NCBI RefSeq assembly: GCF_900112755.1 | Contig: NZ_FOMW01000008.1 | Span: 124,001-188,000 of the forward strand | Origin: Sulfitobacter brevis | Lineage (GTDB): Bacteria > Pseudomonadota > Alphaproteobacteria > Rhodobacterales > Rhodobacteraceae | Direction of reading: 5' to 3' | Length of the DNA stretch: 64,000 bases | Part shown: in pieces, positions 54,733 to 64,000 of the stretch | How the letters are laid out: each line of letters begins with the position of its first letter | Numbering within the stretch: the first letter of the stretch is position 1 | The notes under the pieces: model-generated | Database searches by the model: none | Seen by the model: only the letters and a program-made list of their open reading frames with translations | What the model was told of the DNA's origin: nothing | Program-made: the position numbers and the translations under genes

Positions 54733-57700
54733 ATGACCAAACCCGACCACACATTCGCGACCTATCAACTGGAAGACCGCTATGCGCAGCCGCGCGGGCG
54801 GGTGTTTCTGACCGGCACCCAAGCCTTGGTGCGGATCATGCTGGATCAGGCGCGGCGCGACCGCGAGGCGGGGCTCAACACTGCCGGGTTCGTGTCGGGG
54901 TATCGCGGGTCTCCTCTGGGGGGCTTGGATCAGGAAATGTGGCGCGTCGGCAAGCGGCTGGAAGCGGCCCGCGTCAAATTCCTGCCTGCCGTGAACGAAG
55001 ACCTCGGTGCCACCGCCGTTTTAGGCGCACAGCAGGCCCATCTTGATCCGCATTGCGAGGTCGAGGGTGTGTTTTCGATGTGGTATGGCAAGGGGCCGGG
55101 GGTGGACCGGTCCGGTGATGCGCTGAAGCACGGTAACGCCTATGGCTCCGCGCCCAAGGGCGGCGTGCTGGTGGTGGCGGGGGATGACCACGGTTGCGTG
55201 TCCTCCTCCATGCCGCACCAATCCGATGTCGCCTTCATGTCGTGGTTCATGCCGACGCTGAACCCTGCCTCGGTCGCCGAATTCCAGAGCTTTGGTGAAT
55301 ACGGTTTTGCCCTGTCGCGGTTCTCCGGCACCTGGGTCGGTTTCAAGGCGATTTCTGAGACGGTGGAGAGCGGGGCGTCGGTCGATCTCGCGCCGGACCG
55401 TGTGTTCGTGCAACCCGACTACACCGCGCCGCAGGGAGGCTTGCACGTGCGCTTGGGCGATCTGCCGTCGCCCGCGATTGAAACGCGTATTCACGACAAG
55501 CTTGAGGCGGTGCGTGCCTTTGTCGAAGCGAACCCGATCGACCGCCATATCTATGAAATCAAGGACGCGGCTTATGGTATCGTGACCACGGGGAAAGGCC
55601 ACCTTGATACGATGGAGGCGCTGCGTCTGCTGGGGCTGGACGAAGCGAAATGCCGCGATCTGGGCATCGATATCTATAAGGTCGGCATGGTCTGGCCGCT
55701 GGCAGTGCGCGATGCGCTGGATTTTGTAAAAGCCAAGCGCGAAGTGCTGGTGATCGAGGAAAAGCGCGGCATCATCGAAAGCCAGTTCAAGGAGGCTTTC
55801 TATGACTGGCCCGGCTCCAAACCGGCGCGGATGGTCGGCAAGCACGACGAGAATCTCGAAGAGCTGATTCCGTGGACGGGAGAGCTGTCGCCGCTCTTGC
55901 TGGTGCCGGTGATCGCCGCGCGGCTGGATGCGTTTTTCCCCGAAGAAAAGCTATTGGAGAAAGCCCGCGCGTTGACCGACACGCCGCCGGTGTTGCTCAA
56001 TGTCGCTGGGGCCACGCGCACGCCCTATTTCTGCTCGGGCTGTCCGCATAATACCTCGACCAAGGTGCCCGAGGGCTCCACCGCGAATTCCGGCATCGGT
56101 TGCCATGTGATGGCGAGCTGGATGGACCGCGACACCGCCGGATTTGCCCAGATGGGCGGCGAAGGCGTGCCGTGGATCGCAACCTCGCTGTTCAATGGCG
56201 GCAAGCATGTCTTCCAGAATTTGGGCGAGGGTACGTGGTATCATTCGGGCAGTCTCGCGATCCGGCAGGCGGTCGCGGCCAAGGCGAACATCACTTACAA
56301 GATACTTTACAACGACGCTGTGGCGATGACCGGCGGGCAACCCGTCGATGGTCCTGTTTCGGTCAGCTGCATCGCACAGGCAGCACGGGCCGAAGGCATT
56401 GCGCAGATCGCCGTGGTCTCCGATCAGCCCGAGAAGTTTGTGAAGGCGGATTTCCCCGGCGATACCAGTTTTGACCATCGGCGCGACCTCGACACTGTGC
56501 AGCGCGAGTTGCGCGAGATTCCGGGCGTGACGGTACTGATTTACGAGCAAACCTGCGCGACTGAAAAGCGCCGCAAGCGCAAACGCGGGACGATGGAGGA
56601 CCCGAAGAAATTCGTTATGATCAATGATCTGGTCTGCGAAGGCTGCGGCGATTGCAGCCTTGAGAGTAATTGTCTGAGTGTGGAGCCCATAAAAACCGAG
56701 TTTGGCACCAAACGGAAAATTAACCAGTCGACCTGTAACAAGGATTATTCCTGCCTCAACGGGTTCTGCCCGTCTTTTGTGACTATTGAGGGCGGCACGC
56801 GGCGTAAGAAAGCCGGTGCTGGATTGGATGCAGAGGCGCTCGCGGCAGATTTGCCGCAGCCCCCGCTGCCGACGTTGGATCGGCCATACGATCTGCTGGT
56901 GACAGGTGTTGGCGGCACGGGTGTTGTAACGGTGGGGGCGTTGATTTCAATGGCGGCCCATCTGGAAGGCAAAGGCTCCAGCGTGCTGGATTTCACTGGC
57001 TTTGCGCAGAAATTCGGGACCGTTCTGGGCTATGTCCGCTTGGCCGCGAGCCCGCGCGACGTACATCAGGTGCGCATCGGGCAGGGTGCGGCGGATGCAG
57101 TTATCGGCTGCGATATGGTGGTAAGCTCTGCGCCCAAGGCTTCGGCGCATTACCGGCGTGGCACCCGCGTGGTGCTGAACCGTGCCGAGATGCCGACAGG
57201 TGATCTGGTGCTCAACCGCGATGCTGATCTGGCGATCGACCAGCGCGAACAGGTGGTGGTTCAGGCAGTGGGCGCGCAGAATGTGCAGGCCTTTGATGCC
57301 AACGCGATGGCCGAACGGTTAATGGGCGATGCAGTGTTTGCCAACGTGATGATGCTCGGCTTTGCGTGGCAGCAGGGCTTGGTGCCGGTGTCGCTGACAG
57401 CGCTTTATCAGGCGATCGAGCTGAACGGCGTGGCACCTGAGAAGAACAAGTCGGCCTTTGCTTTTGGCCGTGTTATGGCTGCAAATCCAGACGCGCTGAA
57501 CGCGCCGCAAGAGGTGCAGGGCGAAGAGACTGTGGCGGACCTGATCGCCCGTCGCATGGCCTTTTTGACCGACTACCAGAACGACGCTTATGCGGCGCGT
57601 TATAAGGCGCGGCTGGACGCTGTGACCCCGCATCTGACCGACGACCAACAGCGTTTAGCGGCGACATCGCTGTTCAAGCTGATGGCCTATAAGGACGAGT

Positions 57701-58134
57701 ACGAGGTTGCACGTCTCCACACGCAGACCGGATTTGACACGCGCATCGCTGATGCTTTCGAAGGCGACTATAAGGTGCATTACCACCTCGCACCGCCGAT
57801 GTGGCCGACGGGCAAAGACACCCGCGGCAGGCCGTTTAAACGCAAGTTCGGCCCGTGGATGGGCGCGGCCTTCAAAGTATTGGCCAAGATGAAACCGCTG
57901 CGCGGCACCTGGGCCGATATCTTCGGCTATGGCGCAGACCGCAAGCTGGAGGTCGCCTTGATTGCGTGGTTCGAAGGGGTGCTGGATCAAGTCGCGCAGA
58001 CGGATATGGACGATGTGACCAAGAGCAAACTGCTTGTCGCGCCAATGGAAATTCGCGGCTACGGTCCGGTGAAAGAGGCTGCCGCGCACCGCGTTCAGGG
58101 TGAGGTCGCGGCACTGTTGGCTGTGTCTATTTAA
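54733..58134 (+). CDS. Indolepyruvate ferredoxin oxidoreductase, fused subunits
   Basis: Thiamine-diphosphate enzyme that oxidatively decarboxylates aromatic 2-oxo acids to acyl-CoA with ferredoxin. The 1133 residues combine the alpha (IorA) and gamma (IorB) parts. In order: pyrimidine domain (FVSGYRGSPLGGLDQEM), thiamine-binding domain (GIGCHVMASWMDRD, GEGTWYHSGSLA, NDAVAMTGGQPVDG), and an iron-sulfur region with two cysteine groups (CEGCGDCSLESNC and CNKDYSCLNGFCP). The gamma domain follows, starting near VTGVGGTGVVTVGALI. The AGGAGGCCC ribosome site is strong. Such fused enzymes are usual in alphaproteobacteria; the gene is likely controlled by the divergent Lrp. Confidence 0.93.
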   Translation: MTKPDHTFATYQLEDRYAQPRGRVFLTGTQALVRIMLDQARRDREAGLNTAGFVSGYRGSPLGGLDQEMWRVGKRLEAARVKFLPAVNEDLGATAVLGAQQAHLDPHCEVEGVFSMWYGKGPGVDRSGDALKHGNAYGSAPKGGVLVVAGDDHGCVSSSMPHQSDVAFMSWFMPTLNPASVAEFQSFGEYGFALSRFSGTWVGFKAISETVESGASVDLAPDRVFVQPDYTAPQGGLHVRLGDLPSPAIETRIHDKLEAVRAFVEANPIDRHIYEIKDAAYGIVTTGKGHLDTMEALRLLGLDEAKCRDLGIDIYKVGMVWPLAVRDALDFVKAKREVLVIEEKRGIIESQFKEAFYDWPGSKPARMVGKHDENLEELIPWTGELSPLLLVPVIAARLDAFFPEEKLLEKARALTDTPPVLLNVAGATRTPYFCSGCPHNTSTKVPEGSTANSGIGCHVMASWMDRDTAGFAQMGGEGVPWIATSLFNGGKHVFQNLGEGTWYHSGSLAIRQAVAAKANITYKILYNDAVAMTGGQPVDGPVSVSCIAQAARAEGIAQIAVVSDQPEKFVKADFPGDTSFDHRRDLDTVQRELREIPGVTVLIYEQTCATEKRRKRKRGTMEDPKKFVMINDLVCEGCGDCSLESNCLSVEPIKTEFGTKRKINQSTCNKDYSCLNGFCPSFVTIEGGTRRKKAGAGLDAEALAADLPQPPLPTLDRPYDLLVTGVGGTGVVTVGALISMAAHLEGKGSSVLDFTGFAQKFGTVLGYVRLAASPRDVHQVRIGQGAADAVIGCDMVVSSAPKASAHYRRGTRVVLNRAEMPTGDLVLNRDADLAIDQREQVVVQAVGAQNVQAFDANAMAERLMGDAVFANVMMLGFAWQQGLVPVSLTALYQAIELNGVAPEKNKSAFAFGRVMAANPDALNAPQEVQGEETVADLIARRMAFLTDYQNDAYAARYKARLDAVTPHLTDDQQRLAATSLFKLMAYKDEYEVARLHTQTGFDTRIADAFEGDYKVHYHLAPPMWPTGKDTRGRPFKRKFGPWMGAAFKVLAKMKPLRGTWADIFGYGADRKLEVALIAWFEGVLDQVAQTDMDDVTKSKLLVAPMEIRGYGPVKEAAAHRVQGEVAALLAVSI

Positions 58135-58234
58135 ACGGGCGCATCGGCGGCGGCGTGCCTTGACAGCCCGCGCCCCGCTTGACATTCCGGCGCTCCGTGG
58201 GCCCCATGCGCCCAACGTAAAGGAGTCTGAACCG

Positions 58235-59350
<1,116 letters not shown>

Positions 59351-59380
59351 TCCTCGTGGGCAACCGACATTGTTAAATAA

Positions 59381-59417
59381 TAGCCGGTCCAACACCAGAT
59401 GTAGGGCCGGTTTTTTT
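59381..59417 (+). terminator. Terminator after the formaldehyde dehydrogenase gene
   Basis: CCGGTCC (59384-59390) pairs with GGGCCGG (59404-59410), one G-T pair, followed by TTTTTTT at 59411-59417. Confidence 0.85.
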
Positions 59418-59522
59418 GTGCCGCAATGCCCCACCGCTGACGCGGGGGAACGGCCAATGCGCGCTTTACACGCGGGCCTGTAGCTGTACCCTGAACCGAC
59501 CAGTTTAGCAGGAGCCGCCCCC

Positions 59523-59981
59523 ATGCAACTTACCGTTAACGGAACCGCCCATGAGGTGGATGCAGAGGATGACATGCCGCTGCTCTGGGTGTTGCGCGAC
59601 GAGCTTGGCATTACTGGTCCGAAATATGGCTGCGGGATTGCCCAATGCGGTGCGTGCACGGTGATGGTTGATGGTGTCGCTGTGCGCTCGTGCCAACTGG
59701 CGCTGGGCGATGTGGACGGCGAAGTCACCACCATCGAAGGGCTGGGTACGCCCGAAGCATTGCATGTGGTGCAAGCGGCTTGGGTGCAGCATCAGGTTGC
59801 GCAATGCGGCTATTGCCAGTCGGGGCAGATCGTTCAAGCGGCCTCCCTGCTTGATCTCAATCCCGAACCGACAGACGCCCAGATTGACGCGGCGATGAGC
59901 GGTAATCTGTGCCGTTGCGGGACCTATCCGCGCATCCGCGCGGCGGTTCGCACCGCGGCCAACAAATTGCAGGGGGCCTGA
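59523..59981 (+). CDS. Molybdenum hydroxylase 2Fe-2S subunit
   Basis: Small iron-sulfur subunit of a xanthine-oxidase-family hydroxylase of the isoquinoline 1-oxidoreductase type. The 152 residues contain the plant-type 2Fe-2S motif [11 protein letters not shown] and the second cluster in an all-helical domain (CGYCQSGQ, then CRCGTYPRI). The next gene starts three bases after its stop, forming a two-subunit enzyme without an FAD subunit. Confidence 0.94.
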
Positions 59982-59984
59982 ACC

Positions 59985-62228
59985 ATGGGGCGCATCAAGA
60001 CCATCGCGCGGCGCAGCTTTCTGATTGGTTCTGTTGCAATTGCGGGCGGGGTGGCATTTGGCATTTACGCCTATAAGCGCGAGGGTAAGAACCCGTTGCT
60101 CGACACGCTGGCCCCCGGCGAGGCGAGCTTTAACCCCTACGTCAAGGTCGATGCCAATGGCGTCACCCTTATCACGCCACGCGCCGATGTCGGGCAGGGG
60201 GCTTACTCCATTCAGGCGCATCTGATCGCCGAGGAGATGGATGTCGATTTGGCCACCGTTCGGATCGATCCGGGTCCCCCTTCGGCTGTCTATTACAATG
60301 GTGTTGTCGGGATAGAGGCGATGCCGATTGCTGCGACTTCTGAAACGTTTCTGGCCAATACCGGGCGCGGCGCGGCGGATGTCGCAGGCAAGTTTTTAGG
60401 GCTGCAACTGACCGGTGGATCGACGACCGTGCCGGATATGTTTGACCGATTACGCCATGCGGGGGCGGTGGCGCGGGCCACGCTGATCGCAGCAGCAGCC
60501 GAGCAGACCGGTCTGCCAGCCGACCAGTTGCGCACCGACATGGGCGCCGTGGTGCTGCCCGATGGGGTGCGTCTGGAATATGCCGATCTTGCCGCCACCG
60601 CAGCCGAGATCGAACCCGTGCAAGAGGTGACACTCAAGGACCCGTCAGACTGGAAATATCTGGGCAAGCCACAGCAGCGTACCGATATTCTTGCGAAATC
60701 CACCGGCACCCAGACCTATGGCATCGACATGGTGATGGACGGGATGGTTTATGCCACCACCCGCACCAACCCAGCGCAGGGCGGCGCGATACGCGGCTTT
60801 GATGCGTCAACGGCGAAAGAACGGCGCGGGGTGAAAGCGGTATTGCCCATCACCGGCGGAGTCGCGGTGATCGCCGACAACACCTGGCGCGCTTTTCAAG
60901 CGGCTGCCGAGGTGAAGTGCGACTGGGACGATGCACCCTATATTGGCGACAGCGACAAACAGTTCGCTGCCGTCGCTGCAGCTTTTGATCCTGCCAGGCA
61001 AGACAGCCGCTTTCGCGACGAAGGCGATGTTGATGCGGCGTTCGAGGCCGCAGCCGAGGTGATCGAGGCGGAATACCGCATTCCCTATCTGGCCCACGCA
61101 CCGCTGGAGCCGATGAGCGCGATGGTTTTGCTGGCCGAGGGGCGATTGGACATCTGGACCGGCACCCAGATCCCGCGCTTTATGCAGGCCAATGCCGCCA
61201 AACGCGCAGGGCTGGAGGCTGAAAACGTCCATGTGCATGTGCTGATGTCGGGCGGCAGTTTCGGGCGGCGGCTGGAGGATGACTATGTCTTGCAGGCGGT
61301 CGAGATCGCGATGCAATTGCCTGATGTGCCGATTAAAATGGTCTGGTCCCGCGAAGAAGATTTTACCCATGACTTTCCCCGACCGCTGGCGATGTCGCGG
61401 GCGCGCGGCACTGTGAGCGATGGCAAGATTGCCGCTTATGATCTTGCGGTTGCCGCCCCCTCCACGGCGGAATCGCAGATGGCGCGGCTTGGCCAGCCGG
61501 TGATGGGGCCGGATATGGCGATTGTGCAATCGACATGGGACCAGCCCTTTGCGATCCCCGACTACCGCGTCACCGGATACCGCGTGCCCGCGATGGTGCC
61601 GGTGTCGTCGTGGCGGTCTGTCGGGGCGTCGGGCAACGGGTTTTTGCACGAGTGTTTTATTGACGAGCTTTGCCTTGCCGCCGGAGCCGATCCGCTGGAG
61701 GAACGGCTGCGCCTTTGCAGCCACGATGTATCGCGCAAGGTGTTGGAGGCCGTGGGCGAGATGTCGGGCTGGGGTAGCGAGATGGCGCAGGGGCGCGGGC
61801 GTGGCTTGGCCTTTGTGCTGGCCTTTGGAGTGCCGGTCGCACAGGTGATTGAGGTGACCGATGTGGAGGGCGCAATCCGCATCGACAAGGTATTTGTCGC
61901 CGCTGATGTGGGTCGCGTGATCGATCCGGTGAATTTTGAGGCGCAGGTTTCGGGCGGGGTAATCTTTGGCCTCGGGCACGCGATGAACTGCGAGCTGACC
62001 TATAAGAACGGGGTGCCGCAGCAGGACAATTATCATGCCTACGAGGGCATGCGGCTCTATCAATGCCCCGAGGTTGTGGTGCGCGGATTGGAGAATGGTA
62101 CGGAAATTCGGGGCATTGGCGAGCCCGGCGTGCCGCCGTCGGCGCCCGCGCTGGCCAATGCGATCTTTGCTGCCACTGGCAGCCGAATTCGCACGCTGCC
62201 GCTGTCTCATTCGGTGAGGTTCGTTTGA
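59985..62228 (+). CDS. Molybdenum hydroxylase large subunit (isoquinoline 1-oxidoreductase type)
   Basis: Molybdopterin-binding catalytic subunit of 747 residues. A twin-arginine signal (ARRSFLIGSVAIAGG, arginines at residues 9-10) suggests export to the periplasm or membrane anchoring. Family segments include VGQGAYSIQAHLIAEEMD, MSGGSFGRRLEDDYV, and the C-terminal EIRGIGEPGVPPSAPALANAIF with the active-site glutamate. The enzyme hydroxylates N-heterocycles or aldehydes, with electrons likely leaving through the 2Fe-2S subunit to the diheme cytochrome that follows. The substrate is unknown. Confidence 0.9.
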   Translation: MGRIKTIARRSFLIGSVAIAGGVAFGIYAYKREGKNPLLDTLAPGEASFNPYVKVDANGVTLITPRADVGQGAYSIQAHLIAEEMDVDLATVRIDPGPPSAVYYNGVVGIEAMPIAATSETFLANTGRGAADVAGKFLGLQLTGGSTTVPDMFDRLRHAGAVARATLIAAAAEQTGLPADQLRTDMGAVVLPDGVRLEYADLAATAAEIEPVQEVTLKDPSDWKYLGKPQQRTDILAKSTGTQTYGIDMVMDGMVYATTRTNPAQGGAIRGFDASTAKERRGVKAVLPITGGVAVIADNTWRAFQAAAEVKCDWDDAPYIGDSDKQFAAVAAAFDPARQDSRFRDEGDVDAAFEAAAEVIEAEYRIPYLAHAPLEPMSAMVLLAEGRLDIWTGTQIPRFMQANAAKRAGLEAENVHVHVLMSGGSFGRRLEDDYVLQAVEIAMQLPDVPIKMVWSREEDFTHDFPRPLAMSRARGTVSDGKIAAYDLAVAAPSTAESQMARLGQPVMGPDMAIVQSTWDQPFAIPDYRVTGYRVPAMVPVSSWRSVGASGNGFLHECFIDELCLAAGADPLEERLRLCSHDVSRKVLEAVGEMSGWGSEMAQGRGRGLAFVLAFGVPVAQVIEVTDVEGAIRIDKVFVAADVGRVIDPVNFEAQVSGGVIFGLGHAMNCELTYKNGVPQQDNYHAYEGMRLYQCPEVVVRGLENGTEIRGIGEPGVPPSAPALANAIFAATGSRIRTLPLSHSVRFV

Positions 62229-62809
62229 TGCGTTTGGTTTTTGCTTTGATGGTCGCGGCTGCTCCGGCACTGGCGCAAGAGGTTGTGACGCCGCAAATCC
62301 CGCGTGAAGAGGGGCTGGCAGCCTGGGACCGGATTTTCGAGGTCACCTCGCACCCGCGCTGCACCAATTGCCACGTCGGTGACGCGGGCATCCCGATGTG
62401 GGAGGCTTTGGGTTACGGTGAAGAGCGGGTCCACGGGATGGGCATTGTTGCGGACGATAGCCGCATTGGTGCCGAAAGCGTGCCGTGCCGGACCTGCCAT
62501 GTCACCTCTGCGCGGGCCAACACCGTGCCACACGCGCCGCCGCATATTGATGACGCGTGGCGGCTGCCGCCGATCGAGCTGGAATGGCTTGATAAATCGA
62601 GTGCCGAGGTTTGCGCCCAGATGCGCGACCCTGAGACCAATGACGGAAATACCATCGCGGAACTGGTTGAGCATCTGCAGACTTCCGCCTTTGTGGCATG
62701 GGGCTTTGATCCGGGTGCGGGGCGGTCTGCGCCGACCGGCACAGTGGAGGATATCGCCCGCGATGTCGCACTTTGGGGAGAGGCAGGCACGCCCTGCGTC
62801 GAAGGCTGA
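62228..62809 (+). CDS. Diheme cytochrome c, partner of the molybdenum hydroxylase
   Basis: A 193-residue periplasmic protein. The signal peptide MRLVFALMVAAAPALA is followed by two heme-binding motifs, CTNCH (about residue 42) and CRTCH (about residue 88). The start overlaps the large-subunit stop by one base (TGATG). It probably accepts electrons from the hydroxylase and passes them to the respiratory chain; the partner is inferred from the overlap only. No third CxxCH is present. Confidence 0.88.
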   Translation: MRLVFALMVAAAPALAQEVVTPQIPREEGLAAWDRIFEVTSHPRCTNCHVGDAGIPMWEALGYGEERVHGMGIVADDSRIGAESVPCRTCHVTSARANTVPHAPPHIDDAWRLPPIELEWLDKSSAEVCAQMRDPETNDGNTIAELVEHLQTSAFVAWGFDPGAGRSAPTGTVEDIARDVALWGEAGTPCVEG

Positions 62810-62884
62810 CCGTAGGAATTCAGCCGCACGCGCGGTTGCGGTCTTGACCCTTGATGCGCTTTGAAATAACCCTTCAACTGTAGC

Positions 62885-62920
62885 GCGGGCGTTGTGTAAT
62901 GGTAAGACCTCTGCCTTCCA
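62885..62920 (+). pseudogene. 5' fragment of tRNA-Gly(UCC), cut at the anticodon loop
   Basis: The 36 bases match the 5' half of tRNA-Gly(UCC): acceptor strand GCGGGCG, the D arm with GTGTAATGGTAAGAC, the 5' side of the anticodon stem (TCTGC), and loop CTTCCA with anticodon TCC. The downstream bases (CACAAAAGAACG...) do not pair with the anticodon stem, which would require GCAGA. There is also no TTCGA T-loop and no CGCCCGC acceptor strand. The gene thus ends at the loop, exactly where AT-richer DNA with an integrase begins, so this is a likely attachment junction. Confidence 0.8.
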
Positions 62921-62922
62921 CA
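62915..62922. other. Candidate attachment (crossover) site in the anticodon loop
   Basis: The tRNA match ends within CCTTCCA(C). Tyrosine integrases often use the anticodon loop and its stem as the crossover core. To the left is ordinary chromosomal sequence after the cytochrome gene; to the right is the putative element. The exact core can be fixed only by comparison with the far end. Confidence 0.55.
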
Positions 62923-63048
62923 CAAAAGAACGCGATTTCCTGCACGTTCCATTATATTCCACCGTATTATTATCATTGACTAAATTGTTCATTGGCTTTC
63001 TTGTGATTTCATACCCCTTCAGGGTGATGCCGACAAAAAGCAGACAAA

Positions 63049-64000
63049 ATGCCAAAACTGACAGAGACTTTTTCTCGCAAGATACCCCACGCAATATCGG
63101 GGACAGAAAAGCACTGGGATAGTGAAATAAGAGGACTTGTGCTTTTCGTCGGGAAAAAATCGAAGACATGGTACTTTCAGAAAGATGTCGGCGGACGAAC
63201 ACGTCGTGTTTTGATCGGGCGACATCCGGTTATCTCTGCTGAAGCGGCACGCCAGACCGCACTTGAATTTACTCTTCAATGGAGTAGGGGGGCAGGCAGG
63301 CAAATCCAAATTGGCGCGCCTACGCTTGCAGCCGCTATGGAAGTTTACCTAGTACGCCCGAAACTACGCTCGGAAAGCCATAAGAGTGGAACCCGCGCGC
63401 AGCTGACGCTCCATCTCAAAGACTGGCTGCGGTTGCCGTTAGATGAAATAAGCAAAGCAATGGTCGTCCGTCGTCATCTAGAAATGGCAAAGACGCCCTC
63501 TGGGGCCAATCACGTACTCCGGGCGTTCCGAACAATTTACAACCATGCACGTCGAACCTGTGACCTCCCAGAGTGCCCTACTATGGCGATTGAGTGGTTC
63601 GAAGAGAAACCCGATGGTAGGACTATCGAAGATCTTCAGGATTGGCGCTCGACTATTGATAGTCTTGAAAACCCAATCCATCGGGCTTTCTATTATTTCT
63701 TATTGTTCACTGGCTTCAGAAAATCTGAGGCCTTCACCCTTCAGTGGTCCCAAATATTGGATGACCGAATCCATTTGCCAATGACAAAGAATGGCAGAAG
63801 TTTTGACTTACCAATCCTTCCGATACATCGGGAAATCTTGGCCCCTTTACGCCTCCTAAGCCCAAATTGGGTGTTCCCCTCACCAAAGTCGATGACGGGA
63901 CACATCACAAGGCCTGATAGGCTTAAGTATAATCCTCATATGCATCGTCGGACATTTGCCACGGTCGCAATGGAGGCGGGCGTTTTGGAAGAAATCGTTG
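63049..64000 (+). CDS. Tyrosine recombinase/integrase (partial, runs off the window)
   Basis: The frame from ATG 63049 is open to the last base, giving 317 residues without a stop. The N-terminal part resembles the arm-binding domain of P4/phage-type integrases (DSEIRGLVLFVGKKSKTWYF, RRVLIGRHPVISAEAARQTALEF). A core-binding domain follows, then the catalytic domain with R224 in TGFRKSEAF, K247 in MTKNGR, and the H-x-x-R box H297-R300 in HMHRRTFATVAM. The nucleophile tyrosine must lie beyond the window. Base composition is AT-richer than in the rest. It lies 128 bases from the truncated tRNA-Gly, as expected for an element integrated there. Confidence 0.88.
   Translation, partial: MPKLTETFSRKIPHAISGTEKHWDSEIRGLVLFVGKKSKTWYFQKDVGGRTRRVLIGRHPVISAEAARQTALEFTLQWSRGAGRQIQIGAPTLAAAMEVYLVRPKLRSESHKSGTRAQLTLHLKDWLRLPLDEISKAMVVRRHLEMAKTPSGANHVLRAFRTIYNHARRTCDLPECPTMAIEWFEEKPDGRTIEDLQDWRSTIDSLENPIHRAFYYFLLFTGFRKSEAFTLQWSQILDDRIHLPMTKNGRSFDLPILPIHREILAPLRLLSPNWVFPSPKSMTGHITRPDRLKYNPHMHRRTFATVAMEAGVLEEIV

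Follow-up and report, generated by a model that had tools for sequence, protein, structure and literature searches.

Probable integration of a genomic island into tRNA-Gly(UCC) without restoration of the gene: a left junction in Sulfitobacter brevis and related islands in its family

The window, a stretch of 64 kb (G000:C36:124001-188000) from a Sulfitobacter brevis genome of 68 contigs and 4.24 Mb, was analyzed around a broken tRNA gene. Its right-hand part is very probably (about 0.9) the attL of an island that integrates into the host tRNA-Gly(UCC) gene at its anticodon loop without restoring the gene and supplies its own tRNA in a tRNA-attP-int cassette. Sequence comparison established the split, the places of both halves and the recurrence of this arrangement, and it gave no intact Gly(UCC) gene other than that of the element.

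The two junctions of the focal island and the empty site

The sequence GCGGGCGTTGTGTAATGGTAAGACCTCTGCCTTCCA at 62885-62920 corresponds to tRNA-Gly(UCC) up to the anticodon loop and is followed by non-tRNA DNA. Together with the last core base, these 36 nt form the orphan 5' half of the host gene (62885..62921, plus strand, as are all features of this junction). The probable crossover core, CTTCCAC (62915..62921), is the anticodon loop of the tRNA and the stretch identical in attL and attR; the deduced attB is TCTGC-CTTCCAC-GCAGA, and the deduced attP is TTTGT-CTTCCAC-ACAAA. The left end of the element, that is, the A+T-rich P arm of attP, occupies the next 127 nt (62922..63048). A tandem putative arm-type motif, CCGACAAAAAGCAGACAAAA, is located directly 5' of the integrase ATG (63030..63049, by motif). 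The tyrosine integrase gene (358 aa) extends from 63049 to the window end at 64000 and on to G000:C36:188125, and its full ORF (L033:2049-3125) matched the Pfam families Phage_integrase (7.1e-12) and Arm-DNA-bind_3 (6.9e-8). A split of Gly(UCC) in the anticodon loop beside an integrase had been proposed in the earlier note and is borne out, as is the absence of the 3' half from the window: ARAGORN found no tRNA anywhere in the 64 kb, and Rfam gave no family in 62500-63100 at E up to 1. The G+C content falls from approximately 0.6 to 0.40 over 62910-63039, so the description of the replacing DNA as AT-rich holds.

Upstream of the split gene, a probable sigma-70 promoter of the disrupted host tRNA was recognized by consensus (TTGACC ... 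TGAAAT, 62844..62867), and TTGAC at about -41 also precedes native and element tRNA-Gly genes. The chromosomal left flank (62227..62809) lies within the ORF 62063-62809; we take it to be c-type-cytochrome-like, its name and its start inside the ORF being assigned by reading. Further 5' of the split tRNA, positions 54733-62228 presumably carry a fused indolepyruvate-oxidoreductase-like ORF, a class III alcohol-dehydrogenase-like ORF and a two-subunit molybdenum-hydroxylase-like pair, as judged by eye.

The other end of the element was found on contig C25. The genome contains 37 tRNAs by CM search, and ARAGORN, run on the 30 retrieved as loci, reported a single gene each for Gly(GCC), Gly(CCC) and Gly(UCC). 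This sole intact Gly(UCC) gene found lies near the end of C25, inside the element. An orphan 3' half, CTTCCACGCAGAAGACGTGGGTTCGATTCCCGCCGCCCGCTCCA, is located 1375 nt past the anticodon loop of the intact tRNA on the same strand; it has the CTTCCAC core, and the DNA before this core is non-tRNA. The Gly(UCC) 3'-portion pattern had exactly two matches in the genome, namely the orphan half and the element tRNA. The stem TCTGC of the 5' half in the window pairs with GCAGA of the orphan 3' half. The intact tRNA has the anticodon stem CCAGT/ACTGG, and its acceptor stem also differs from that of the host gene, indicating a separate gene and not a reformed host tRNA. Hence, the target tRNA was restored at neither junction. 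When the two halves were joined, they matched intact tRNAs of relatives at 99% over 80 bp (G012 and G005) and 94% over 93 bp (G013). A chance tRNA-like string was rejected on this 99% match, on the uniqueness of the 36-mer (single-copy in the 4.24 Mb at up to three mismatches) and on the reversed control, which gave zero matches.

The flanking genes gave a consistent account of the site before insertion. The ORF 3' of the orphan half on C25, presumably ABC-transporter-like (named by reading), adjoins the intact tRNA in all 12 relatives tested. In a wider set, 33 of the 38 loci that lack an orphan half have this gene (three of them only in part or at a distance), and in 14 of 21 element loci it comes after the orphan half. 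Among the other seven, L026 ends before the gene, which is present on C25; L149 and L161 are short; and L097, L098, L108 and L237 showed no match to it. The left flank is less conserved: among the 12 relatives, a clear homologue (71% over 128 aa, L043) occurs only in G026, upstream of the intact tRNA, with a weak 42-residue match in G030 and none in the other ten. In G026, both flanks surround one intact tRNA, indicating that C36 and C25 were adjacent before insertion.

These results bear on the two explanations offered in the earlier note, which had called for a search for the other end and the missing 3' half; the half was found on C25, next to the host's downstream ABC gene. The first explanation, a full tRNA reformed at the far end, does not apply to this genome, where the orphan 3' half precedes the host's downstream gene and the intact tRNA is separate. 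The second, true disruption with another Gly(UCC) gene elsewhere, was right about the split and the existence of a second gene, which turns out to be the element's own. As for relatives, the intact genes of G012 and G005 share the sequence at 99%, as had been expected; the junction was also not expected without an integrase, and here G028 departs in part, with an integrase remnant of 38 residues only.

The focal element is atypical in its details. Its ends lie on separate contigs (C36 and C25) with the middle unassembled, and its tRNA-orphan distance is 1375 nt versus the usual 137. The focal tRNA is followed by an arm-like site with approximately 50 nt of G035-like DNA, 1.2 kb of debris, a second arm site and the core. 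The debris (L026, minus strand) contains fragments of a mutator transposase and a zinc-ribbon recombinase. The focal island is damaged or composite.

Recurrence of the split and architecture of the far ends

Of the family's 394 genomes, 22 gave relatives of the integrase (E up to 1e-60), as did 5 of the 58 in the genus (E up to 1e-40), the focal genome being included in both counts. A scan of named genomes gave 78 integrase loci, which we take to belong mostly to the roseobacter group. Nine lacked the integrase N-terminus and two had too little upstream DNA, leaving 67 testable loci. In 65 of these, the integrase is preceded by the 5' half of a Gly tRNA gene, cut off in the anticodon loop (63 UCC-like and two CCC); L200 and L252 have no such half. 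The strict pattern was fitted by 61 halves, and the visibly mutated halves of L198, L201, L211 and L227 were recognized by a looser one. The distance from loop to integrase was 128 nt in 39 of the 65 left ends and 117-138 nt overall, and the 39 left ends of equal length share the motif consensus TaCCgACAAAAAgCcGACAAAATG.

An island of the canonical kind, which once restored the 3' half at its integrase end and lost it later while a second tRNA was acquired by chance, is exceedingly improbable as an explanation. Canonical integration is the usual mode, and two integrases of 34-38% identity (G691 and G733) lie by a displaced Gly(GCC) half. Nevertheless, the junction fails to restore the gene in 65 of 67 testable loci, the far ends usually share one fixed layout, and a chance loss would not recur in this way; the explanation was rejected on these grounds.

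The two integrases just mentioned were the only ones outside the family in a class-wide search of 385 genomes. In G691 (L303/L319/L321) and G733 (L302/L320/L323), which belong to two other families, the integrase lies by the displaced Gly(GCC) 3' half on the opposite strand, and the intact Gly(GCC) gene is 15 kb off in G691 and on a separate contig in G733. With a displaced half and an intact gene elsewhere, both loci appear canonical and were left uncounted; they look like a natural contrast with canonical restoration. Separately, in G069, L088 and L159, an integrase of 50% identity lies by a reversed tRNA-Gly(CCC) 3' half with an intact Gly(CCC) gene approximately 13 kb off, which may be a mirror-image form of the design. 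Two family integrases occur together in G002 (C1:3540086-3571433), in G128 (C1 and C9) and on one contig in L197/L260, and this pairing suggests stacked islands that target the tRNA of a resident island.

Nine elements with both ends on one contig were examined whole (approximately 14 to 62 kb); G002 and G214 are likewise two-ended and stand outside this set. Each element has one tRNA by ARAGORN, near its far end. The element tRNA isoacceptor equals the disrupted isoacceptor in 9 of 9 (UCC in G014, G199, G436, G129, G275, G128 and G008; CCC in G418 and G287). The spacing is equally regular: the distance from element loop to orphan loop is exactly 137 nt in 18 of 20 distinct UCC far ends (among the 18, the tRNA of G396 is cut by a contig end), the other two being G010 (138 nt) and G000 (1375 nt). 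The 20 far ends exclude G002 and G003, whose mutated orphan halves were missed by the pattern. In G415, whose integrase is 70% identical, a Gly(CCC) gene is split and another contig carries Gly(CCC) 137 nt from an orphan half; the other Gly(CCC) spacings are 149 nt (G214), 119 nt (G418) and 1199 nt (G287).

Within this interval, CCA lies 100 nt from the core end, and the conserved motif TTTCCGACA-N5-ACCTACAAA lies 11 nt after CCA in most element tRNAs. A similar tandem motif, CCGACAAAAAGCCGACAAAATG, occurs at the opposite end and runs into the integrase start. The motifs at both ends are read as putative arm-type integrase sites. The 58 nt before the core have a mean identity of only 40% among 17 far ends, which indicates that the fixed length is not merely recent copying. 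Moreover, the tRNA is locked beside attP; in the circular form, tRNA, attP and int would make up one cassette of approximately 1.4 kb.

The far ends also bear on an alternative in which the element carries a replacement 5' half, the tRNA is reformed at the far end and the extra 3' half was left by an earlier island of the canonical kind. The position of the intact tRNA close to the far end agrees with it, and G128 and G028 have a left half that resembles the 5' half of the intact tRNA, upstream DNA included, with no orphan 3' half in G028. On the other hand, the left half finds its pairing partner in the orphan half in G000, G014 and G436, whereas the 3' part of the intact tRNA does not pair with it; the ABC gene follows the orphan half in the 14 element loci noted above; a remnant would not hold 137 nt and an arm motif in 18 of 20 far ends; and in 12 of the 16 genomes compared the left flank differs from the DNA that precedes the element tRNA. 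On pairing, ABC gene, spacing and flank, a replacement 5' half in attP was rejected as a general rule, and the alternative is highly improbable.

The exceptions behind this alternative were inspected individually. When the 60 nt preceding the left half were compared with those preceding the element tRNA in the 16 genomes, similarity was 82-98% in G090, G095, G128 and G325 and 42-67% in the remaining 12. G128 has two integrases, and its left half pairs with the island's tRNA and not with its orphan half; G095 has three 5' portions. The duplicated upstream DNA in the four genomes could reflect stacking, gene conversion, capture of a host gene or an element with a replacement 5' half. In G028 (L324, C14:1794500-1806400), a mutated 5' half is followed by the integrase remnant (38 residues, 53% identity), and an intact Gly(UCC) gene with native-like DNA after it lies 11 kb on; the DNA before the 5' half and that before the intact tRNA are nearly identical, and no arm motif or orphan half was found beside the intact tRNA. 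This locus is read as a far end collapsed by recombination between two 3' parts, and taken alone it would also fit the replacement-5'-half element.

Under the preferred reading of non-restoring integration, further incomplete loci were considered. In G003, G010, G021 and G035 (L153, L154, L158 and L155), tRNA, arm motif and orphan 3' half are kept, and no integrase was found in the genome at E 1e-40; these are possibly scars of islands lost via recombination between two 5' parts. In G298, G242 and G156, the left junction is present and a far end of the usual form is absent; the integrase is a fragment in G242 and contains a stop codon in G156.

The decay of the orphan halves was assessed against a native reference of 45 genes without an orphan half within 1500 nt (15 distinct 5' sequences), a set that may hold some genes once carried by elements. 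Of 29 distinct orphan 5' halves (CCC-type and GCTCAATGG-type left out), 16 had bases unseen in this reference, versus 1 of 19 element tRNAs, a comparison biased by ARAGORN, which favours well-formed tRNAs. In the leave-one-out control, an unseen base was present in 1 of the 15 native sequences. The single deviating element tRNA is that of G128, and the same type occurs as a half in another genome. At the level of sequence, the orphan halves were shown to decay more often than the element tRNAs.

The element tRNAs also have promoter-like sequences: TTGAC is present 39-47 nt upstream in 20 of 20 UCC element tRNAs, as in native genes. For CCC elements, the usual -35 is absent in three of four, and only G415 has TTGAC at that place. 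The Gly(UCC) pattern gave exactly two matches (intact and orphan) in 15 of 20 integrase-bearing UCC genomes, three in G396 and one each in G002, G156, G242 and G298. By pattern, one intact Gly(UCC) copy is present in G000 and 14 others of these 20 genomes. Among 32 genomes without the integrase, 28 had one match; of the other four, the second match in G005 is spurious (by eye), and G010, G021 and G035 retain the far end of an island. Furthermore, the 3' part of the element tRNA resembles the orphan half of the same host, with a mean identity of 0.921 versus 0.855 for shuffled pairs (20 far ends, relatedness uncorrected); 9 of 20 pairs are identical, and none of 10,000 shuffles reached 0.921.

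Cargo of the islands and comparison with known systems

When the proteins of ten elements were clustered, the integrase alone was common to more than three; it appears in nine of the ten in the cluster table, that of G275 having been omitted at ORF selection. The Pfam families listed include BREX (G008), an MmeI-type restriction enzyme (G014), copper and signalling genes (G436), and cytochrome-d1, Ku and LigD-primase domains in the pool of G275 and G128. The focal island carries int, an HTH_17 protein and a VapE-type helicase, then TRAP and ABC transporters, with hydantoinase, aconitase-like, PEP-mutase-like and IclR genes and IS66 and DDE_3 transposases. Among the Pfam families listed for elements other than G418 and G287 (up to 25 per list, and the full list for the assembled part of the focal island), neither relaxase nor type IV secretion genes were found.

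The cargo was further explored with PHROGs, the scan covering ORFs of at least approximately 110 aa (80 aa for the focal island) inside the locus borders of elements other than G275, G128, G418 and G287. No capsid, portal, terminase or tail family was present in the complete lists of G014, G436, G129 and G199, and no phage structural family was present among 25 of 26 families of G008 and 25 of 29 of the assembled focal island. Moreover, no integrase of at least 60% identity was found among 50,697 phage or 72,556 plasmid records, and in viral contigs, scanned with exact peptides as seeds, the best match was 43% identical over a short segment. A prophage, that is, ordinary tRNA-dependent lysogeny, shares its logic with the actinophages discussed below, and it would agree with the matches of the integrase to PHROG integrase families and with the VapE-type helicase/primase in three elements. 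Given the absence of structural families among those listed for five whole elements and the assembled focal part, and of close phage integrases, it was rejected and is quite unlikely.

tRNA-dependent lysogeny has been described for the actinobacteriophages Fionnbharth, LeBron, Gaia and others (Guerrero-Bustamante and Hatfull, mBio 2024, PMC10865867). According to the consulted parts of that study, experiments showed cores of 8-17 bp, a tRNA that is not rebuilt and a requirement for a phage tRNA of the same isotype for lysogeny, and a possible case in Lactobacillus was pointed out. On the same account (PMC10865867), actinophages and islands alike have a tyrosine integrase with an arm-binding domain and attB in a tRNA gene; the core is short (8-17 bp versus 7 bp in the islands), with no rebuilding at either junction; and both encode a tRNA of the lost isotype with a promoter, promoter-like in the islands. 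They differ in that the actinophages are temperate phages of Actinobacteria with Lys, Ile2 and Leu targets and experimental support, whereas the islands target Gly(UCC) and Gly(CCC) and are known from sequence evidence; in Fionnbharth, the tRNA overlaps gene 37, whereas the island tRNA is in most cases fixed next to the P' arm, at 100 nt from the core (PMC10865867).

As for the features of tRNA-dependent lysogeny, the integrase domain (Pfam) and putative arm sites (by motif) are present in the islands, attP and attB are identical over 7 bp, too short to rebuild the tRNA, and a tRNA of the same anticodon is carried in 9 of 9. The remaining feature, a temperate phage, contrasts with the PHROG results above. 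The islands work like tRNA-dependent lysogeny yet are not phages by this measure.

Closer in taxonomy, a Lo5R7ANS-like prophage splits tRNA-Leu(UAG) mid-gene in two Sinorhizobium meliloti strains and carries a tRNA of the same isoacceptor (PMC11476347, PMC12429752). These cases and the islands both belong to Alphaproteobacteria and share a split tRNA gene with a same-isoacceptor replacement; they are prophages with a Leu target, two in number, and the consulted parts of the reports mention no fixed tRNA-attP-int arrangement (PMC11476347, PMC12429752). The canonical islands of Islander, as far as described in the consulted parts, share the tyrosine integrase, a tDNA target, a displaced fragment marking one end and mixed cargo, but restore the target gene with their own sequences, whereas the present islands carry a separate whole gene instead (PMC4383910). 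Prophages in tRNA genes, including Gly, are also mentioned in part of another source (PMC8224337). No earlier report of this arrangement in Rhodobacteraceae was found in the main texts of the literature searched. The non-phage cargo, the isoacceptor-matched glycine targets and the proposed tRNA-attP-int cassette set the present islands apart from the known cases.

Proposed mechanism and its meaning for the family

As a general rule, elements entering tRNA genes restore them. In the proposed mechanism, the tyrosine integrase would act on a core of 7 bp whose sequence is that of the host Gly(UCC) anticodon loop, the crossover probably falling within the loop. Since attP outside the core is unlike the tRNA, integration would inactivate both parts of the gene, with the 5' half left next to the integrase and the 3' half at the far end. 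To compensate, the island would bring its own complete tRNA-Gly(UCC) gene, which has a promoter-like sequence. The circular form would carry tRNA, P' arm, core, P arm and int in this order as one cassette, and integration would place its two parts at opposite ends of the island. The isoacceptor match, the usual fixed spacing and the arm-like motifs, all established from the sequences, agree with this arrangement. The island tRNA would presumably be expressed and keep the cell alive, excision would restore the host gene, loss of the tRNA-bearing end would be lethal, and the host tRNA promoter would now read towards int. For CCC elements, survival is no explanation of the spare tRNA, because the cell may be able to do without Gly(CCC).

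A broader reading is tentative: a portable tRNA-attP-int cassette may be standard for the islands of the family, each arrival killing and replacing the single host Gly(UCC) gene. Islands lost through recombination between the repeated 5' parts would leave tRNA, arm and orphan half as a scar, and host tRNA genes would pass between lineages over evolutionary time. Under this cassette reading, the island tRNA replaces the killed host gene, and hence the tRNA-bearing end could not be lost, a form of non-toxic addiction. The far ends without an integrase (G003, G010, G021 and G035) and the host-matched element alleles fit the portable cassette.

If the finding is true, it would offer many integrase/attP/tRNA sets for integration vectors in these bacteria, and it would account for tRNA fragments that annotation may list as odd pseudogenes. 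It would also define a tight, reusable architecture and offer an easy way to test mobile islands for control over a function that the host cannot do without. Furthermore, the exception to restoration would extend to non-phage islands in many genera of one alphaproteobacterial family.
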